A stretch of DNA of 64,000 bases from Roseivirga misakiensis (GTDB lineage: Bacteria > Bacteroidota > Bacteroidia > Cytophagales > Cyclobacteriaceae), in contig NZ_MDGQ01000005.1 of assembly GCF_001747105.1 (NCBI RefSeq), forward strand, positions 1,488,001 through 1,552,000, read 5' to 3'. Positions 12,316 to 20,775 of the stretch are shown here, one piece after another (the first letter of the stretch is position 1; each line of letters starts with the position of its first letter). Below the pieces are notes generated by a model. That model ran no database searches, was not told where the DNA came from, and saw only the letters and a list, made by a program, of their open reading frames with translations. The position numbers and the translations under genes were made by a program.

Positions 12316-15069
12316 ATGAACGCAGTAGAAATTGAAGAGGCTATATCTTTATTGGCGGAGCAAGACTTTGACCCGACAGAATTCCCCTACGCCTTTCTGG
12401 AAGCCTTTGGTAATAAGCCTACCACGATCAAGCGCCTGAGAGCGGGCAATAACAATAAGTCTGATGTAGAAGGGGGCGTGCTGCAGCATAGTAATATTCA
12501 TATCGCTGTTTGTAGTGAAGGCAAGGTATTAGAAACTATCAAAGAGCTAAAACAAAGCTCTGTTACCACAAAGGCCAAAGCCAAATTTGTTTTGGCTACA
12601 GACGGTAATGAGTTTGAGGCCGAAGACCTGAACAGTGGAGAAACGGTAGTTTGTGCTTACAGTACATTTCACAATCACTTTGGGTTTTTCCTTCCACTAG
12701 CCGGCATTAGTACGGTTAAAGAAATTCGAGAGAATGCCTTCGATATTAAGGCAACAAGTAGACTCAATAAGCTCTACATAGAACTGTTAAGACACAACCC
12801 TGAATGGGCGAGGGCCGATAGACGCCAGGGTATGAACCACTTCTTAGCAAGACTTATATTCTGCTTCTTTGCTGAGGACACGGGCATCTTCAATAACGAT
12901 GACCTATTTACGGATACCGTAAAGCAAATGAGTACTTCGGACTCCTCTGACACTCATGAAATTATTGGTGAAATATTTCGAGCAATGGACATCAGACAGG
13001 AAGATCGCTCGGAAAAGAATGTTAAGAATTGGGCCAATAAATTTCCCTATGTAAATGGCCACTTGTTTTCAGGGTCAACTGAAACTCCCAAATTCACTAA
13101 GATTGCCAGATCGTATTTGCTGCATGTAGGAAGTCTCGACTGGAAGAAGATCAACCCAGATATTTTTGGTTCTATGATCCAGGCCGTGGCAGATGAAGAA
13201 GAGCGTGGTGCTTTGGGAATGCACTATACCTCGGTTCCCAATATTCTTAAAGTACTTAACCCACTGTTTCTGGATGACTTAAGAACTCAATTAGAGCAAG
13301 CTGGAGATAATCCACGAAAATTACTTAACCTCAGAAAGCGTATTTCGAGAATTCGTGTATTTGATCCTGCCTGTGGCTCAGGTAACTTCTTAGTGATTGC
13401 TTATAAGCAGCTTCGTGAAATTGAAAATGAAATCAATATAAGGAGAGGAGAATTCAATCGAACTACTGAGATACCGTTGACCAATTTCAGAGGAATTGAG
13501 TTAAGAGATTTTTCAGCTGAAGTAGCACGACTGGCTCTTATTATTGCGGAATATCAGTGTGATGTTATTTACAGAGGACAAAAATTAGCTCTTGCAGAAT
13601 TTCTTCCATTGGATGCTCAAAATTGGATAATTCGAGGAAATGCTCTTCGTTTGGATTGGGTTAATTTAATGGGTGTCGGAGGTGCGGGGGTTAAATTATA
13701 TGCTGATGACCTTTTCAGTACTCCTCTTGATCAAACTCAAATGGATTTTAATAACGAGTCTGGAGAAACATTTATCTGTGGAAATCCACCCTATCTTGGG
13801 AGGAAGTATCAATCAGACTTACAAAAAGATGAGCTAAAGCGAGTTTTCGCAGATAGAGGAGTAAGAACGTTGTTGCTGGATTATGTTTCAGGTTGGTTCA
13901 TCAAAGCGGTTGATTTCATTTTACGAGCTGAGGCATCAGTTGCATTTGTAAGCACAAATTCAATTTGTCAAGGTATTCAAGTGTCTACTTTATGGCCAGA
14001 AATCTTTAAGCATGATATTTCCATTTCTTTTGCTTTTCCATCCTTTAAGTGGTCTAACCTTGCTAGTTACAATGCAGGTGTAACGGTGTCTATCATCGGG
14101 CTGGCTAAAAGAAAGTCCAATAGGATGCTTTTTACATCAGATGATAACGGAGAGACGGTAGTAAAAAAGGTTGATAACATTAATGCCTATTTAGTTGCAT
14201 CGGAAAATGTATTTGTAACTCCAAGAAGCAAGGTAACCGACAACCGCACTGCAATGCAGTTTGGCAATCATCCATACTATGCAAATCAATTGATGCTTAC
14301 CTCTACAGAAGCCCGTAAATTATCTGAGCGTACCCCTGAAGTACAGGAGTTTATCCGTCCTTTATATGGATCTAGAGAGTTTATTACTTGCAATCCAAGA
14401 TACTGTATTTGGATAAAGGAATCACAGTTGGATGATGCAATGTTACACACTGATATTTCAGATAGGATTAATAAAGTAGAGGCAGTCAGAAAGGAGAAAA
14501 AGAAGGACATTCAAGCTCAGAAGTTGTCTTTGACCCCTTACAGATTTAGAGATCAGTATGAAGCTACAAAGCAACTTCTAGTGGTGCCAATAGTAAGTTC
14601 GGAAAATCGACCTTACCTTCCAGTAGGAGTAATAAAATCCAATGCCATCGTTCATAATAAGGCGTTTGCATTATACGATGCACCACTTTGGAACATGGCC
14701 TTAATTGCTTCTCGTTTACATTGGGTTTGGATAGGAACTGTTTGTGTAAGGATGCGGACTGATTTTTCGTATTCCAATACTCTTGGCTGGAACACTTTTC
14801 CAGTACCTCCTTTAACTGAAAAGAATAAACAAGATTTAATCACTTGTGCGGAAGAAATACTTATAGCTCGCGAACGGCATTTTCCAGCTACCATAGCGGA
14901 GTTATATGATCCTGAAAAAATGCCTGAAGATTTGCGCCAGGCACATGAACGCAATGATGAAGTGCTAGAACGAATTTATATAGGGCGGAGATTCAAAAAC
15001 GACACCGAGCGCTTGGAAAAACTATTCGATTTTTATACCAAGATGACCACTAAAGAGAAAAGTTCATGA
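12316..15069 (+). CDS. MmeI/type IIG-like N6-adenine DNA methyltransferase
   Basis: 917 residues. The SAM-binding motif I is DPACGSGNF (residues 350-358) and the catalytic motif IV is NPPY (490-493), typical of gamma-class N6-adenine methyltransferases; GMHYTS at ~301-306 matches motif X. A ~300-residue N-terminal domain and helical spacer precede the catalytic core, and residues ~620-870 resemble a target-recognition domain. The layout matches the MmeI family, but I cannot see the D..ExK nuclease motif expected at the MmeI N-terminus, so cleavage may be delegated to another protein. The stop overlaps the helicase start by four bases (ATGA), indicating one operon. It probably marks host DNA as self. 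Confidence 0.88.
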   Translation: MNAVEIEEAISLLAEQDFDPTEFPYAFLEAFGNKPTTIKRLRAGNNNKSDVEGGVLQHSNIHIAVCSEGKVLETIKELKQSSVTTKAKAKFVLATDGNEFEAEDLNSGETVVCAYSTFHNHFGFFLPLAGISTVKEIRENAFDIKATSRLNKLYIELLRHNPEWARADRRQGMNHFLARLIFCFFAEDTGIFNNDDLFTDTVKQMSTSDSSDTHEIIGEIFRAMDIRQEDRSEKNVKNWANKFPYVNGHLFSGSTETPKFTKIARSYLLHVGSLDWKKINPDIFGSMIQAVADEEERGALGMHYTSVPNILKVLNPLFLDDLRTQLEQAGDNPRKLLNLRKRISRIRVFDPACGSGNFLVIAYKQLREIENEINIRRGEFNRTTEIPLTNFRGIELRDFSAEVARLALIIAEYQCDVIYRGQKLALAEFLPLDAQNWIIRGNALRLDWVNLMGVGGAGVKLYADDLFSTPLDQTQMDFNNESGETFICGNPPYLGRKYQSDLQKDELKRVFADRGVRTLLLDYVSGWFIKAVDFILRAEASVAFVSTNSICQGIQVSTLWPEIFKHDISISFAFPSFKWSNLASYNAGVTVSIIGLAKRKSNRMLFTSDDNGETVVKKVDNINAYLVASENVFVTPRSKVTDNRTAMQFGNHPYYANQLMLTSTEARKLSERTPEVQEFIRPLYGSREFITCNPRYCIWIKESQLDDAMLHTDISDRINKVEAVRKEKKKDIQAQKLSLTPYRFRDQYEATKQLLVVPIVSSENRPYLPVGVIKSNAIVHNKAFALYDAPLWNMALIASRLHWVWIGTVCVRMRTDFSYSNTLGWNTFPVPPLTEKNKQDLITCAEEILIARERHFPATIAELYDPEKMPEDLRQAHERNDEVLERIYIGRRFKNDTERLEKLFDFYTKMTTKEKSS

Positions 15070-17117
15070 CTCAGAAGAAAGCCATACCATCAGTTACGGT
15101 TAATTATAAAACTACCGGCAACTCTACCAAGTCCAATGAATTGGGCATGAGAACCATGCAGGAAAGAGCTTATGAAAAGCGTGGTGAGCAGTACCTTCTA
15201 ATCAAATCACCTCCGGCTTCTGGTAAGAGTAGGGCGTTAATGTTCATAGCACTTGACAAACTTAACAACCAAGGAATTCAACAGACTATAATTGCTGTTC
15301 CAGAAAAATCAATAGGATCAAGTTTTACGAATGAGCCTCTCAGTAAGTTTGGTTTTTACTACGATTGGGAGGTGGTACCGAAGTGGAACTTGTGTAATGC
15401 ACCCGGAGAAGATGGTAGCAAAGTAACTGCTGTCAAATCATTTCTGGATAGTGAAGACCAAGTCTTGGTATGTACTCATTCCACTTTTCGATTTGCGATT
15501 GAGCGCTTTGGAGTTGAGGCATTTGATAATCGATTGATTGCAATTGATGAGTTTCATCACGTTAGTGCTAATGAAGACAACGTGCTAGGTACACAGTTAA
15601 AGCAATTTATTTCCAGAGATAAGGCTCATATCGTAGCTATGACGGGTTCTTATTTTCGGGGCGATGCCATTCCCGTTTTAATGCCCGAAGACGAGGCTCG
15701 ATTCGATACAGTTACCTATACTTATTATGAACAGCTTAATGGTTACCAGTATCTAAAAACTTTAAATATTGGTTACTTTTTCTACAGCGGAGCGTATGCA
15801 GAAGATATTCTGAATGTGCTTGACCCAGAAGAGAAAACGATAATACATATACCCAATGTCAATTCTCGTGAAAGCATGGGAGACAAGATCAAAGAAGTCA
15901 ACCATATTATGGATGAAATGGGTGAATGGCAGGGTATAGACCCAGAAACGGGTTTTCATCTGATTAAAACAACTAAGGGAAAAGTTATTAAAGTGGCTGA
16001 TCTAGTAGACGATGAGCCAACTAAACGAAATAGAGTTTCCTCAGCGCTAAAATTGCCAGAAGCCAAGAACAATCCTGATCATGTTGATATCATTATTGCA
16101 TTAGGCATGGCCAAAGAAGGTTTTGATTGGATATGGTGCGAACATGCGCTTACAGTTGGCTATAGGTCCAGTCTAACAGAGATTGTACAAATAATTGGTC
16201 GAGCTACAAGGGACGCACCGGACAAGACTCATTCTCGCTTCACTAATCTTATTGCAGAGCCAGATGCGTCCGAAGAAGCAGTCACAGATGCTGTAAACGA
16301 TACTCTTAAAGCTATTTCAGCAAGTTTATTAATGGAGCAAGTACTTGTTCCTAAATTCAATTTCATACCTAAAAGGCCAGAAAATAAGGCTAACCCTCTA
16401 TTAGACTATGGTGAAAGAGGCTACGATCCTGACGTTTGTAACATGGCTTTCAATGAAGAGATGGGTGAGTACCATATTGAAGTCAAAGGACTCATAGAAC
16501 CCAAAAGTGCAGATGCACAGCGAATCTGCAAAGAAGATCTCAATGAAGTAATTGCCGCTTTTGCCCAGGATAAGCAAACTATTGAAAGAGGCTTGTTTGA
16601 CGAAGAAACTGTGCCTGAGGAATTAACGCAGATCAGAATGGGTAAAATCATAAAAGAGAAATATCCTGAGTTGGATGATGAAGATAGAGAAGCTGTGCGT
16701 CAACATGCTATAGCAGCCTTAAACCTGACTCAAAAGGCGAAAGAAGTACTCAATAATGATTCTGAATTGGAAGGAAGAGGAAGCACAGCGCTTATCGATG
16801 GCATACGTAAGTTTGCTATGGATGTGAGAGACTTAGATGTGGATTGGATAGATAGTATTAATCCATTTAGTGAGGCTTATTCTATTTTGTCCAAGGCAAT
16901 GACTGAGCAAAGTCTCAAAGCGATGGCTGAGGTAATTTCAGCCCGAAACCCTAATATGTCTTTAGAGGACGCCAGAGAGTTGGCAAAAAGAGCCTTGAAG
17001 TTTAAAAAAGAGAGAAACAGATTGCCAGATATAAAATCGGCTGATCCATGGGAACAACGAATGGCTCAAGGGATAGCCTATCTTGCCAGGCTGAAATCGG
17101 AGGAAGCGAATGACTAA
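15066..17117 (+). CDS. SF2 DEAD/DEAH-like helicase of the defence operon
   Basis: 683 residues. Walker A is PPASGKS (49-55), the motif II variant is DEFHH (161-165), motif III is TGSY (193-196) and motif VI is QIIGRATRD (375-383), so both RecA-like lobes are complete. GMAKEGFDW (~347-355) is the motif V region. The last ~230 residues form a helical domain rich in acidic and basic residues with a module near residue 655 (RNRLPDIKSADPWEQRM) that resembles the N-terminus of the next protein. The gene overlaps the methyltransferase by 4 bases and the nuclease gene by 8 bases. It is probably the translocating or unwinding motor of the restriction-like complex. It is not a clear type I HsdR or type III Res: no nuclease domain is visible. 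Confidence 0.9.
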   Translation: MTQKKAIPSVTVNYKTTGNSTKSNELGMRTMQERAYEKRGEQYLLIKSPPASGKSRALMFIALDKLNNQGIQQTIIAVPEKSIGSSFTNEPLSKFGFYYDWEVVPKWNLCNAPGEDGSKVTAVKSFLDSEDQVLVCTHSTFRFAIERFGVEAFDNRLIAIDEFHHVSANEDNVLGTQLKQFISRDKAHIVAMTGSYFRGDAIPVLMPEDEARFDTVTYTYYEQLNGYQYLKTLNIGYFFYSGAYAEDILNVLDPEEKTIIHIPNVNSRESMGDKIKEVNHIMDEMGEWQGIDPETGFHLIKTTKGKVIKVADLVDDEPTKRNRVSSALKLPEAKNNPDHVDIIIALGMAKEGFDWIWCEHALTVGYRSSLTEIVQIIGRATRDAPDKTHSRFTNLIAEPDASEEAVTDAVNDTLKAISASLLMEQVLVPKFNFIPKRPENKANPLLDYGERGYDPDVCNMAFNEEMGEYHIEVKGLIEPKSADAQRICKEDLNEVIAAFAQDKQTIERGLFDEETVPEELTQIRMGKIIKEKYPELDDEDREAVRQHAIAALNLTQKAKEVLNNDSELEGRGSTALIDGIRKFAMDVRDLDVDWIDSINPFSEAYSILSKAMTEQSLKAMAEVISARNPNMSLEDARELAKRALKFKKERNRLPDIKSADPWEQRMAQGIAYLARLKSEEAND

Positions 17118-18318
17118 GAAAAAGACACTTACCGAAGAAGATGATGCTTTGTTAGTAGAATTGGGCGTAGAGGTTGAGGTAAAAAAAGCGGTAAAGCATA
17201 CGCCACGTGAAGAACGGATTATTGCGGGCTTTGAAGAGATTCAAAAGTTTGTGGAAGATCACGGCAAACTGCCTGAGCATGGTGAAGAGAAAGATATTTT
17301 TGAAAGGCTTTATGCGGTAAGATTAGATCAAATTCGCAAACTAGATGAATGCAGGGAACTAGTGCAGCCCATGGACTATCAAAATCTGTTAGACGCTGGC
17401 GCTACTCTGAATATTGAAACGGAAGCTACTCTGAATGATGAAGAGCTACTTGCCCAGCTGGGTTTAGAAGATCAGGAAAACTCCATCACGAAGCTGAAGC
17501 ATGTCAAAACCCGCGCAGAAAAGCGGGCAGCAGAAGAAATAGCCAATCGTACTGCTTGTGAAGATTTTGAGCAATTTAAGCCGCTATTTGAGGCTGTTAA
17601 AAGGGATATGTTTGATGGCTTGAGACCAACCATTCGCTTTAGAAAAGATGCCGGCTTTACCAAAACTACACTAGGTCGGGAGCAATTTATTATTGTTGGA
17701 GGGCAGATTGCCTATATAGCCGAGGTAGGAGAAACCATCAAGGCACCTAATGGCGAAGACGATGCACGATTGAGGGTGATTTATGCCAATGGCACTGAAA
17801 GCAATATCTTATTAAGGTCTCTTATTCGGGCCATGTATAAGGACGAAACCAGCAGGTTTATTACTGGCGCTAACTCCGGGCCACTCTTTTCTGGTGAAAA
17901 CAGTGCTGATGATCAAGAAAGCGGTACTATCTATGTGCTTCGCAGTTTATCAAATCATCCGGCTATTAAGGAAAGTAGAGACATAGTTCATAAGATAGGA
18001 GTGACGGGTGGAGAGGTTCAGAAACGCGTTGTCAACGCTAAAAATGATCCCACTTTTCTTTTAGCAGAGGTAGAGATAGTAGCTACTTATAAGCTTGCCA
18101 ATATTAACCGGGTCAAGCTTGAGCAAATTATCCATAAGGTTTTAAGCCCTGCCCGGCTTGATATTGAGATGAAAGATCGTTTTGGCAAGCCTGTAAAAGC
18201 CAAAGAGTGGTTTTTAGTACCCATATTTATCATTGATGAATTGGTAGAGATATTAAAGCAAGGTCGTTTAAGAGATTATTATTACGACCCTAAATCGGCA
18301 GAATTGAAACAAAGATAG
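17110..18318 (+). CDS. GIY-YIG (T5orf172/MUG113-type) nuclease of the defence operon
   Basis: 402 residues. The C-terminal ~110 residues form a GIY-YIG domain: TIYVL (273-277) stands for GIY, HKIGVT (294-299) for YIG, Arg306 and Glu338 (KLEQIIH) are placed as the catalytic pair, matching the T5orf172 subfamily. The N-terminal ~75 residues (FEEIQKFVEDHGKLP, then DIFERLYAVRLDQIR) resemble a small module also seen at the helicase C-terminus; the middle is a ~120-residue unassigned region. Eight-base overlap with the helicase gene means coupled expression. It is the best candidate for the DNA-cutting subunit of the operon. Assignment to the family is firm; the restriction role is inference from context. 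Confidence 0.85.
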   Translation: MTKKKTLTEEDDALLVELGVEVEVKKAVKHTPREERIIAGFEEIQKFVEDHGKLPEHGEEKDIFERLYAVRLDQIRKLDECRELVQPMDYQNLLDAGATLNIETEATLNDEELLAQLGLEDQENSITKLKHVKTRAEKRAAEEIANRTACEDFEQFKPLFEAVKRDMFDGLRPTIRFRKDAGFTKTTLGREQFIIVGGQIAYIAEVGETIKAPNGEDDARLRVIYANGTESNILLRSLIRAMYKDETSRFITGANSGPLFSGENSADDQESGTIYVLRSLSNHPAIKESRDIVHKIGVTGGEVQKRVVNAKNDPTFLLAEVEIVATYKLANINRVKLEQIIHKVLSPARLDIEMKDRFGKPVKAKEWFLVPIFIIDELVEILKQGRLRDYYYDPKSAELKQR

Positions 18319-18400
18319 AGACACCCAAGATTACAGAAACATTGTCTCCTATAGTGCAATAAGGAGTTGAGTAAAAAAAATGAGAACTAAATAGCAAATC

Positions 18401-19372
18401 ATGCTTTGGAATAAAGAAGAGAGATACACGCATCTTCCCTATGAAAATGAGGCTGAACTTGAAAGTGCAGTGAATGAAGTAAAGTCACAGTTATTTGGTT
18501 CTAAACGTATTTATCTCGATGACAAAAAGAAGATTGGAAAAAGAGGAAAAACCAATAACCTCCCTGATGGCTATTTAATAGACTTAACAAATCAGAAGGA
18601 TCCTAAAGTCTTTGTTGTTGAAAATGATTTGACTAGCCATCAGCATTTAAAACACATAGCAGTTCAAATTTTAGAATTCTCTCTTTCTTTTGAAGCATCT
18701 AAGGTTAAAGTAAAAAATGTAATCAAAGAGATGCTCCAGAAACGACAAGTTGAATGGAGAAAATGCGAGTTATTTGCCAAAGAAAATGGATTTGAAAATG
18801 TGGATTATTTACTTGAGTCGATTATCCACAAACCGGATTCATTTAATGCTTTACTGATTATTGATGAACTAGGAGAGGAACTAGAAACCGTATTAATTAG
18901 TCGCTTTCGTTTTCCTGTGGAGACGGTTACCCTTAAGAGGTTTAAAAGTGATAAAGGTGACATTCTTTATGATTTTGAGCCTTTCCTTAATGATTTATCG
19001 GAAGACACTGAAAAAGTGAATATTACGGATATTGATACTATTGTTGTTCCAGCCCGTGAAGATGGGTTCAATGAGGTATTCATTGGTGAAGATTGTTGGT
19101 ATGCCATTCGTCTAAATTCTTCCATGATTCCGATGATCAAATATATAGCAGCTTATCAGGTAGCTCCTATATCCGCAATAACACATATTGCAGAGGTGAA
19201 ATCAATTGATCAATACAAAGACACGAATAAGTATATATTGACCTTTACTGATCCTGCTGAAAAAGTTAAAAAGGTTTCGATTGGAAAAATTAAAGGAAAA
19301 GCTCCTCAGAGCCCTCGTTATTCTTCTAAAGAAAGAATATTAAAGGCGAAGTCATTAGACGAGGTTTTTTAA
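18401..19372 (+). CDS. PD-(D/E)XK-like protein downstream of the defence operon
   Basis: 323 residues, no family I can name. The first ~90 residues look like a restriction-endonuclease fold: a helix with acidic residues (ENEAELESAVNEV), then LPDGYLIDL (Asp56) and KVFVVENDL (Glu74), giving D...E as in PD-(D/E)XK enzymes; the usual lysine of ExK is Asp76, so activity is uncertain. A second half (~150-300) has mixed alpha/beta character with LLIIDELGEELE and repeated lysine-rich strands near the C-terminus. It starts 82 bases after the GIY-YIG gene on the same strand and may be transcribed with it, or be an independent defence cargo gene. Confidence 0.6.
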   Translation: MLWNKEERYTHLPYENEAELESAVNEVKSQLFGSKRIYLDDKKKIGKRGKTNNLPDGYLIDLTNQKDPKVFVVENDLTSHQHLKHIAVQILEFSLSFEASKVKVKNVIKEMLQKRQVEWRKCELFAKENGFENVDYLLESIIHKPDSFNALLIIDELGEELETVLISRFRFPVETVTLKRFKSDKGDILYDFEPFLNDLSEDTEKVNITDIDTIVVPAREDGFNEVFIGEDCWYAIRLNSSMIPMIKYIAAYQVAPISAITHIAEVKSIDQYKDTNKYILTFTDPAEKVKKVSIGKIKGKAPQSPRYSSKERILKAKSLDEVF

Positions 19373-19455
19373 CATTACTATTCTTGTACAATCTCATGTG
19401 CGTTACTTTAACCTCTGAACCTCAATTATCTATTATAAAATTTTAAATCCCAAGC

Positions 19456-20775
19456 TTAGTTTTCCTTTACCAACCCCACCACAAACCTCGTCAGACCACT
19501 ATCTCTGCTATAAGTTAGTGTACCTCCATGCGCTCTGACGATATTGCGAGAAAGCGCCAAGCCAATTCCTGAACCATCTGCTTTGGTCGTATAAAACGGA
19601 ACAAATATCTCCTGTACTCTATCTTCAGACACGCCAGCCCCATTATCAATTACTTGAATCAACATACGTTCATCGATTTTAGAGACATTCACCCAAATCG
19701 ATGCATTATTCACTGCTCTAACAGCATCCAGCGCATTCTTAATCAAATTAATCAGCACTTGAGTCATCAAATGACGGTCTATCTTCAATGGACCATTGAA
19801 ATTGTCTTCGTACACGATGGATATGGCATCTTCAGGCTGCATAAGTGAAGACAAAGAATCAAGGAGTTCTTTGCTTTGAACGAGTTCCAAGTGAGGTGCC
19901 ACTGGACGATTGATTTGCTTATAAGCTTCCACAAATTTGAGCATACCCTCAGTGCGTACCTCTATGGCTTCAAGACTCTTAGCAACGTTTTTCTGATCTC
20001 TTTCAGCAAGTGATTCTAGCGCTTCATCTTTGATCAGTTTTTTGTTGACTACTCGAATAAGAGAAAGGATAGGAGTAGTCGAGTTCATAATCTCGTGCGT
20101 CATTACGCGCATCAGTTTTTGGTAGCTTTCTAACTCTTTGGCATCCAAAGAACTTCGTATATCGGCAAGAGAAACCAAGCGATAAGGCTTTCCTTTTAGT
20201 TTGAAAGACTCACTCTTGACAAAAAGTTTTTGTCCGTTTTTATGATCGATCCATTCGGTACTTATTCCTTCGCCTTTCTTAAATACCTGATAGATTTGAG
20301 GATAGTCTGCTTCAAATTTATCGATATGAATAAAATCGGTGATTTCAAGCAGCTTGCTAAAGGCCTTGTTGCTGAAAACCACTTCTCCGGTCTCTTTAAA
20401 ACAAATTACAGCTACCGATACATGCCTTAATACGGTCTGCAAAAGCCTGAATTCTGCCTCTTTATTGGTTTGAAGAGATTCCATTCGCTCGGTGATCAAG
20501 TTGTAGGCCTTTTCTAAGTCTTTGCTATTGGTTTGTTTCTGATAAGTTCTGCTATAGTCTCCAAATGAGATGGCATTTAGAAAATTCGCCCAGTTTCTTT
20601 CCTGTTTTCTCAAATACCAAGTCATCTCAATGGACATAATCAAAATAAGCATGGCAAACATAACGGGGGTCACGGATAAATCAGTTTCGAGATATGAATA
20701 ACACATACCGATCGCTAGGCCAACAATGATGATGACGCGTATGAATACGTAAAAGAAGCTCGTTTTAAATGTCAT
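19456..20775 (-). CDS. Sensor histidine kinase, NtrB/NtrY-like
   Basis: 439 residues. Two N-terminal membrane helices (about 8-28 and 36-54) with almost no periplasmic loop, then a PAS-like domain (~105-205), the phosphoacceptor H-box MTHEIMNSTTP (His227) and a HATPase domain with NLIKNALDA, DNGAGVS and GSGIGLALS. The lack of an extracellular sensor suggests it reads a membrane or internal cue. The start overlaps the end of the regulator gene by 11 bases, so the two form a cognate pair, with the regulator first in the transcript. Confidence 0.93.
   Translation of the reverse strand: MTFKTSFFYVFIRVIIIVGLAIGMCYSYLETDLSVTPVMFAMLILIMSIEMTWYLRKQERNWANFLNAISFGDYSRTYQKQTNSKDLEKAYNLITERMESLQTNKEAEFRLLQTVLRHVSVAVICFKETGEVVFSNKAFSKLLEITDFIHIDKFEADYPQIYQVFKKGEGISTEWIDHKNGQKLFVKSESFKLKGKPYRLVSLADIRSSLDAKELESYQKLMRVMTHEIMNSTTPILSLIRVVNKKLIKDEALESLAERDQKNVAKSLEAIEVRTEGMLKFVEAYKQINRPVAPHLELVQSKELLDSLSSLMQPEDAISIVYEDNFNGPLKIDRHLMTQVLINLIKNALDAVRAVNNASIWVNVSKIDERMLIQVIDNGAGVSEDRVQEIFVPFYTTKADGSGIGLALSRNIVRAHGGTLTYSRDSGLTRFVVGLVKEN

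Follow-up and report, generated by a model that had tools for sequence, protein, structure and literature searches.

Genes at the locus

The stretch analysed here, hereafter the window, comprises 64,000 nt of Roseivirga misakiensis (NZ_MDGQ01000005.1, positions 1,488,001-1,552,000, forward strand; positions below are window coordinates) and carries at 12316-18318 three consecutive genes for an MmeI-type N6-adenine DNA methyltransferase, a superfamily 2 (SF2) helicase and a T5orf172/GIY-YIG nuclease-like protein (Table 1). All three open reading frames (ORFs) lie on the plus strand and, according to the ORF listing with translations, are intact with no internal stop; genes 1 and 2 overlap by 4 bases (15066-15069) and genes 2 and 3 by 8 bases (17110-17117). 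These overlaps, together with the motifs quoted in the initial annotation (DPACGSGNF, NPPY, PPASGKS, DEFHH and QIIGRATRD), were all found, and its naming of the parts as an N6-adenine methyltransferase, an SF2 helicase and a GIY-YIG protein of the T5orf172 type is correct by Pfam. Identical overlaps of 4 and 8 bases occur in two close relatives from Pontibacter (L052 and L053), and the overlap of 8 is the commonest helicase/GIY spacing, being found in 55 of the 79 named-genome loci that have the GIY gene. The GC content of the trio (0.39-0.43) gives no clear island signal; it is lower, 0.354, in the bin 18001-19500, which contains the additional ORF listed last in Table 1.

Table 1. Features of the three-gene locus and the adjoining ORF (window coordinates; aa, amino acids)
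Feature	Position	Strand	Evidence
MmeI-type (DnmA/YeeA-like) N6-adenine DNA methyltransferase, 917 aa (gene 1)	12316..15069	+	five MmeI Pfam domains; PADLOC PDLC03598; 5hr4 match
MmeI_N region, aa 1-159, without PD-(D/E)XK triad	12316..12792	+	MmeI_N E=1e-33; triad columns
Methyltransferase domain, aa 326-606; DPACGSGNF aa 350-358, NPPY aa 490-493	13291..14133	+	Pfam MmeI_Mtase; alignment
Target recognition domain, aa 629-833, hypervariable among relatives	14200..14814	+	Pfam MmeI_TRD; region identities
SF2 helicase (YeeB-like), 683 aa (gene 2)	15066..17117	+	Pfam DEAD and ResIII; alignments; AlphaFold model
T5orf172/GIY-YIG nuclease-like protein (YeeC-like), 402 aa (gene 3)	17110..18318	+	Pfam T5orf172 and MUG113; alignments
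GIY-YIG (T5orf172) domain, aa 272-381	17923..18252	+	Pfam; invariant Y275, K295, G297, R306, E338
323-aa ORF, not a conserved system part	18401..19372	+	17/395 genomes; joins helicase and GIY gene only in window genome

Relatives were taken from three sets. Named-genome loci are the best 80 of at least 528 helicase-encoding stretches (tblastn, E <= 1e-3), the phylum set consists of 395 genomes of the same phylum (thresholds of E <= 1e-20 for the helicase, 1e-6 for the GIY gene and 1e-30 for the methyltransferase) and the viral set of 43 IMG/VR contigs. The stretches DEFHH, AKEGFDW and AMTGSYF served as search patterns for the named-genome and IMG/VR relatives.

An MmeI-type methyltransferase without the MmeI nuclease

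The gene 1 product carries all five MmeI domains of Pfam in the order N-terminal, helical spacer, methyltransferase, target recognition and C-terminal, with E-values of 1e-33 for MmeI_N, 1.1e-107 for MmeI_Mtase and 2.6e-77 for MmeI_TRD. It matches the PADLOC 2.0 Type IIG model PDLC03598 over nearly its full length (930 bits), has weaker matches to DrmMI (1.6e-31) and PglX (8e-07), and aligns from residue 82 onward with the solved MmeI structure 5hr4 in a sequence search of the PDB. The nuclease triad of MmeI is formed by D70, E80 and K82 (PMC4833311), and the corresponding columns of the window protein hold G54, A64 and C66. When proteins of at least 850 aa were aligned, the D-E-K triad was present in 32/32 stand-alone MmeI-type proteins versus 0/101 operon methyltransferases, the latter comprising the window protein, 6 from the phylum set, 66 from named genomes and 28 from viral contigs, some of which are near-identical. 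Single triad positions were kept in very few operon proteins (D in 1/101, E or Q in 3/101, K in 0/101), and ten of them contain the loose motif D-x(6,16)-[EQ]-x-K at some point of the N-terminal part, none with the full aligned triad. A DPACG.GNF-like motif is found in 99 and NPP[YFW] in 97 of the same 101 proteins. The triad counts fit the proposal of the initial annotation that a separate GIY-YIG subunit has taken over cleavage.

Classification of gene 1 as Type IIG by PADLOC and as MmeI by Pfam would suit a Type IIG/IIL enzyme that methylates and cuts alone, with two unrelated genes downstream. This is contradicted by the absent nuclease triad and by the helicase and GIY genes, which accompany the subtype in every resolvable locus of the best 80. 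Neither gene was hit at 39 further, stand-alone MmeI-type places from the phylum set, an absence that is partly by construction because these genomes were chosen from those without a helicase hit; flanks of less than 2 kb on one side occur in 11 of the 39. We regard a self-sufficient enzyme of this kind as highly improbable.

The helicase and the GIY-YIG protein

Gene 2 has Pfam matches above cut-off to DEAD (5e-07) and ResIII (5.4e-07) and a weak one to Helicase_C; its motor domain is recognised only as generic ResIII/DEAD and no nuclease family was found in it by Pfam. The Walker A motif PPASGKS lies at 15210-15230, DEFHH at 15546-15560 and QIIGRATRD at aa 375-383. Every motif position checked is invariant across the 101 loci, except for S52 (98); for DEFHH, AKEGFDW and AMTGSYF the invariance is partly by construction because these stretches were used as search patterns. 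PADLOC returned weak partial matches only; among 33 aligned helicases (that of the window and 32 relatives), 17 weakly match the PbeA model PDLC02707, with a best E-value of 4.6e-13. Sequence search of the PDB with gene 2 gave nothing at E <= 0.01, and a helicase profile retrieved two DHX58 entries at 5e-05. The AlphaFold model (predicted template modelling score, pTM, 0.56) has 514 structural matches at E <= 0.001, of which the 50 listed are mostly SF2 helicases, including EcoR124I HsdR and LlaBIII; judged from this model, the likeness to SF2 helicases is broad and not specific. Some plasmid-borne YeeB-like helicases are annotated as "pseudomurein-binding repeat-containing protein", a misleading label for a helicase that perhaps stems from weak similarity to PMBR, such as the match below threshold in the Pfam scan made here.

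Gene 3 matches T5orf172 (1.3e-11) and MUG113 (4.7e-11) in Pfam. Residues Y275, K295, G297, R306 and E338 are identical in 97/97 full-length GIY proteins, and the tyrosine, arginine and glutamate (here Y275, R306 and E338) are catalytic residues of the GIY-YIG fold. As for the helicase, PADLOC gave weak partial matches only, and among 33 aligned GIY proteins (window and 32 relatives) the PDC-S57 model PDLC05041 was matched by 8 (best 2.1e-08) and PD-Lambda-1 by one. A PDB sequence search retrieved three unrelated molecules at E 0.13-0.46 and a profile search of the PDB none. The structural model is of low overall confidence (pTM 0.38), and with Foldseek it has no match at E <= 0.001; eIF5A chains (E 0.0022) and EF-P domain I (5wxk; E 0.025, target TM score 0.64) ranked highest. 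The model suggests a layout of helices followed by a small barrel and the GIY domain, with the Foldseek hits pointing only to the small barrel.

Conservation and distribution of the trio

The initial annotation had treated the three genes as one system, and a conserved order was indeed found. Of the best 80 named loci, 76 have the methyltransferase gene upstream in the same orientation, 39 of them directly and 37 with an insert, and the other 4 stop at a contig end; the GIY gene directly follows the helicase in 79, the remaining one being a contig end. In the 43 IMG/VR contigs, the methyltransferase gene is upstream in 33, with contig ends in the other 10, and the GIY gene is next in 39, with one contig end. 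The phylum set has the helicase in 9/395 genomes and the GIY gene in 10/395, namely those 9 and G386, which has a fragment; the methyltransferase query matches 46/395, more than the helicase because stand-alone MmeI-type enzymes also match. Apart from the window, the phylum set offers 8 loci; the GIY gene follows the helicase in 8/8 and a methyltransferase hit lies upstream in 7/8, always with an insert, although one such hit (L044) is only a 123-aa fragment at a distance of 2.5 kb. All told, the 9 phylum genomes with helicase and GIY gene together have the methyltransferase or a fragment of it in the same locus in 8 cases, the exception being L047 (see below). The three genes are thus supported as one conserved unit.

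The helicase was absent from each of the 8 genomes sampled from the genus (1) and family (7) of the window organism, which indicates a patchy distribution. In these 8 genomes a search with the flanking genes did not identify the orthologous site (best matches of 28-34% identity for the kinase, 46% at best for the peptidase and none for the 252-aa gene), so that insertion of the trio is not directly demonstrated. The closest relatives among the matches listed are a Bacteroidetes metagenome-assembled genome (83% helicase identity) and Pontibacter (82 and 81%). According to record titles, the best 80 loci come from Bacteroidota, Alpha-, Beta- and Gammaproteobacteria, Bacillota (Tumebacillus, Cohnella, Fictibacillus), Geobacter, Nitrospirales, Spartobacteria, Lentisphaeria, Bryobacterales and a cyanobacterium. 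Plasmids carry the helicase as well, with matches at E <= 1e-20 in 262/72,556 records, of which 153 align across 80% or more of the helicase and 117 are predicted to be conjugative; in a phage collection 2/50,697 records matched, both short pieces covering 22% of the query.

Decaying copies were observed in three genomes of the phylum set: in G386, aa 1-386 of the methyltransferase adjoin the last part of the GIY gene (L049:6884-8056); in G071, a methyltransferase fragment occurs with a shortened helicase (L044); and in G244, methyltransferase pieces contain a stop (L050).

Divergence of the target recognition domain and an accessory slot

Region identities were compared over all pairs of the 101 operon loci. 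In the 25 pairs with a helicase identity of 90-99.5%, mean identity is 89.2% for the N-terminus, 81.2% for spacer plus methyltransferase domain, 85.2% for the C-terminus and 87.1% for the GIY protein versus only 43.8% for the target recognition domain (TRD). The mean for the TRD is 41.8% in the 584 pairs at 60-70% helicase identity, and TRD identity therefore hardly depends on relatedness. Exceptions to the drop were found for L103/L097 (TRD 79%) and for two pairs in which the loci hardly differ at all (TRD 100%). In a control with stand-alone triad-bearing proteins, the 12 pairs with the most similar N-termini have TRD identities of 43-80% versus 87-99% for the N-terminus. At the level of sequence, this pattern fits the specificity switching expected of restriction-modification (RM) systems pressed to change their target.

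A second variable part is situated between the methyltransferase and helicase genes, where 37 of the 76 named-genome loci with the methyltransferase in view contain inserts of 258-2487 bases, 29 of which hold an ORF of 100 aa or more in the same direction. Over all sets, 55 loci yield 66 slot ORFs that form ten clusters of at least two members plus many singletons. The 24 of these 66 that were scanned gave Pfam matches to Schlafen AlbA_2, RhuM, YhcG/DUF1016, PLD/NgoFVII (weak), CoiA, Bro-N, DUF559, FRG, DUF3800, PDDEXK_4, BrnT and DUF4258, several being without match. Some of these gene types are companions of Type I RM operons. The window operon has the minimal, slot-free direct form. An uncharacterised family has been mentioned as a possible further member of the cluster in some bacteria (PMC9973331), and no publication on TRD swapping or on the accessory slot in this family was found among titles and abstract starts, a search whose coverage leaves out most subscription papers.

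The ORF downstream of the trio

The ORF at 18401-19372 was considered as a fourth subunit and rejected, since it has matches in 17/395 genomes but co-occurs with the helicase and GIY gene in no genome other than that of the window. It has no family match in Pfam, NCBIfam, PADLOC or PHROG, and no sequence match in the PDB is better than E 0.43. Four of seven loci with homologues adjoin RM genes or lie a few genes from them, these being an MmeI-type gene (L196, L233), a C5 cytosine methyltransferase with Vsr (L230) and an N6_N4 methylase with ResIII (L231), and in L229 a homologue adjoins a Fic gene. The family thus accompanies RM genes of several kinds. On visual inspection, the PDGYLIDL...VFVVEND stretch of the ORF is reminiscent of PD-(D/E)XK nucleases.

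A published cluster and its probable function

The initial annotation raised the possibility of an unnamed defence system. This is not supported, because homologues of the three genes have already been described together as the dnmA-yeeB-yeeC cluster (PMC9973331, PMC7261158). In Bacillus subtilis, YeeA, renamed DnmA, produces N6-methyladenine (m6A) at GACGAG; it is an MmeI homologue without endonuclease motif and is followed by yeeB, for a putative helicase, and yeeC, for a putative endonuclease (PMC7261158). Families like yeeB and yeeC are found at +1 and +2 of DnmA homologues (PMC9973331), and the idea of a "Type I-like RM" system is credited by PMC7261158 to Morgan et al. 2009. DnmA is elsewhere termed an orphan methyltransferase (PMC12707154) and a YeeA-type methyltransferase in Deinococcus is mentioned in PMC6712171; the single GIY-YIG passage in the available text of PMC10853773 concerns Dnd systems, and GIY-YIG, MmeI, T5orf172, YeeB and URI are each absent as whole words from the main text of PMC12839542. 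Judged by composition, the window trio belongs as an ordinary case to this published kind, which is already known but under-described; its operon is intact. The other suggestion made initially, that such a system may be annotated only as scattered parts, agrees with PADLOC 2.0, in which gene 1 is a Type IIG enzyme and genes 2 and 3 give weak hits only.

We consider it likely that the trio represents a Type I-like, ATP-dependent RM system in which cleavage has moved to the GIY-YIG subunit, the three proteins probably acting jointly to recognise and attack foreign DNA. The methyltransferase would recognise a short asymmetric site and mark one strand with m6A, which would spare host DNA. On unmodified foreign DNA the same protein would act as sensor and recruit the helicase, which would spend ATP to move along or remodel the DNA, and the GIY-YIG subunit would then nick or cut. 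For the window member, we infer methylation, cleavage and defence from its sequence. In Vibrio crassostreae, deletion of dnmA and yeeB is cited as increasing sensitivity to some phages (PMC9973331).

Several observations weigh against this reading. In B. subtilis PY79, single deletions of dnmA, yeeB and yeeC had no effect on three phages (PMC9973331), loss of dnmA left transformation unchanged (PMC9973331, PMC7261158), phages do not avoid GACGAG and any mechanism is stated to differ necessarily from canonical RM (PMC9973331), and the cluster was judged by the authors to be a non-functional relic (PMC9973331, PMC7261158). In the proteins themselves, the second GIY motif reads KIG instead of YIG. 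In the viral contigs L164, L166 and L173 the helicase ORF is shortened and the GIY gene missing, and L047 has the helicase and GIY genes without methyltransferase, beside SIR2-like, HerA (DUF87) and AlbA_2 genes (L047:4635-13080), where the pair may serve a different sensor. Finally, the TRD pairs share members and hence are not independent, and their pattern may reflect fast divergence instead of an exchange of cassettes.

The conclusion reached for B. subtilis (PMC9973331, PMC7261158) would, if extended to the window, make gene 1 an orphan methyltransferase in a restriction relic, methylating DNA and affecting gene expression while the helicase and GIY subunit stay idle. Broken copies do exist in the sampled phylum (G386, G071); however, all three window ORFs are intact, key GIY and helicase positions are conserved in the relatives examined, and the TRDs diverge strongly amid a conserved remainder, which fits selection on specificity and argues against general relic status. 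A relic at this locus is in our view unlikely, and both the TRD divergence and the triad counts speak for many live copies. Tentatively, the family could be seen as a modular restriction platform that is live and forms a type by itself, outside Types I-IV, made of a nuclease-less MmeI protein with swappable TRD, an ATP motor, a GIY-YIG cutter, a slot for unrelated accessory genes and a helicase-GIY pair usable by other sensors (SIR2-HerA in L047), with the B. subtilis copy as an unrepresentative relic.

The family is widespread, yet PADLOC splits the trio into a "Type IIG" enzyme and unnamed parts. The trio itself is already published, and the interest lies in the signs of a family whose members are in general live and modular. 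The window holds an intact minimal copy of the trio; in the B. subtilis experiments neither restriction nor phage defence was observed (PMC9973331, PMC7261158).

Comparison with known systems

The dnmA-yeeB-yeeC clusters of B. subtilis and V. crassostreae share with the window a nuclease-less MmeI-type methyltransferase, an SF2 helicase at +1 and a T5orf172/GIY-YIG protein at +2, all on the same strand, a likeness taken from the domain descriptions in the papers; the MmeI_Mtase family was also detected in a B. subtilis control genome. YeeB and YeeC of B. subtilis are without several C-terminal-domain stretches present in V. crassostreae (PMC9973331), whereas the window proteins are full length relative to their aligned relatives. 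Single-chain MmeI/Type IIL enzymes have the same five domains in the same order as gene 1 but possess the PD-(D/E)XK triad, which the window protein lacks; the window has separate helicase and GIY-YIG genes.

An adenine methyltransferase related to gene 1 is also found in class 1 DISARM (DrmMI) and in BREX (PglX). The weaker matches of gene 1 to these two models, together with the lack of phage avoidance of the DnmA site and the statement that any mechanism must be non-canonical (both PMC9973331), would agree with a BREX- or DISARM-like block of phage replication without cutting, in which the GIY protein is a DNA-binding or nicking regulator. This is quite unlikely given that the GIY residues are invariant and that DrmA, DrmB, DrmC, PglZ and BrxC are not among the listed hits of the four proteins scanned (the trio and ORF 18401-19372, with 25 of 39 PADLOC families listed for gene 1 and the other window genes covered only as an ORF list). 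The Type I markers HsdS and HsdR nuclease are likewise not among the hits listed for the operon proteins. With such hallmark components missing from the hits of the scanned proteins, the lack of fit to BREX, DISARM, Type I and Type III layouts stated in the initial annotation holds. Type III systems combine Mod with a Res that has its own nuclease; in the window, gene 1 is of the MmeI type and gene 2 only a generic ResIII/DEAD motor. In the way they work, Type I (HsdRMS) and Type ISP (LlaGI/LlaBIII) enzymes are comparable in combining a methyltransferase and target recognition with an ATP-dependent SF2 motor, whereas in the window recognition resides inside the methyltransferase, no nuclease family was found in the motor and the candidate nuclease is a GIY-YIG protein on a third chain.

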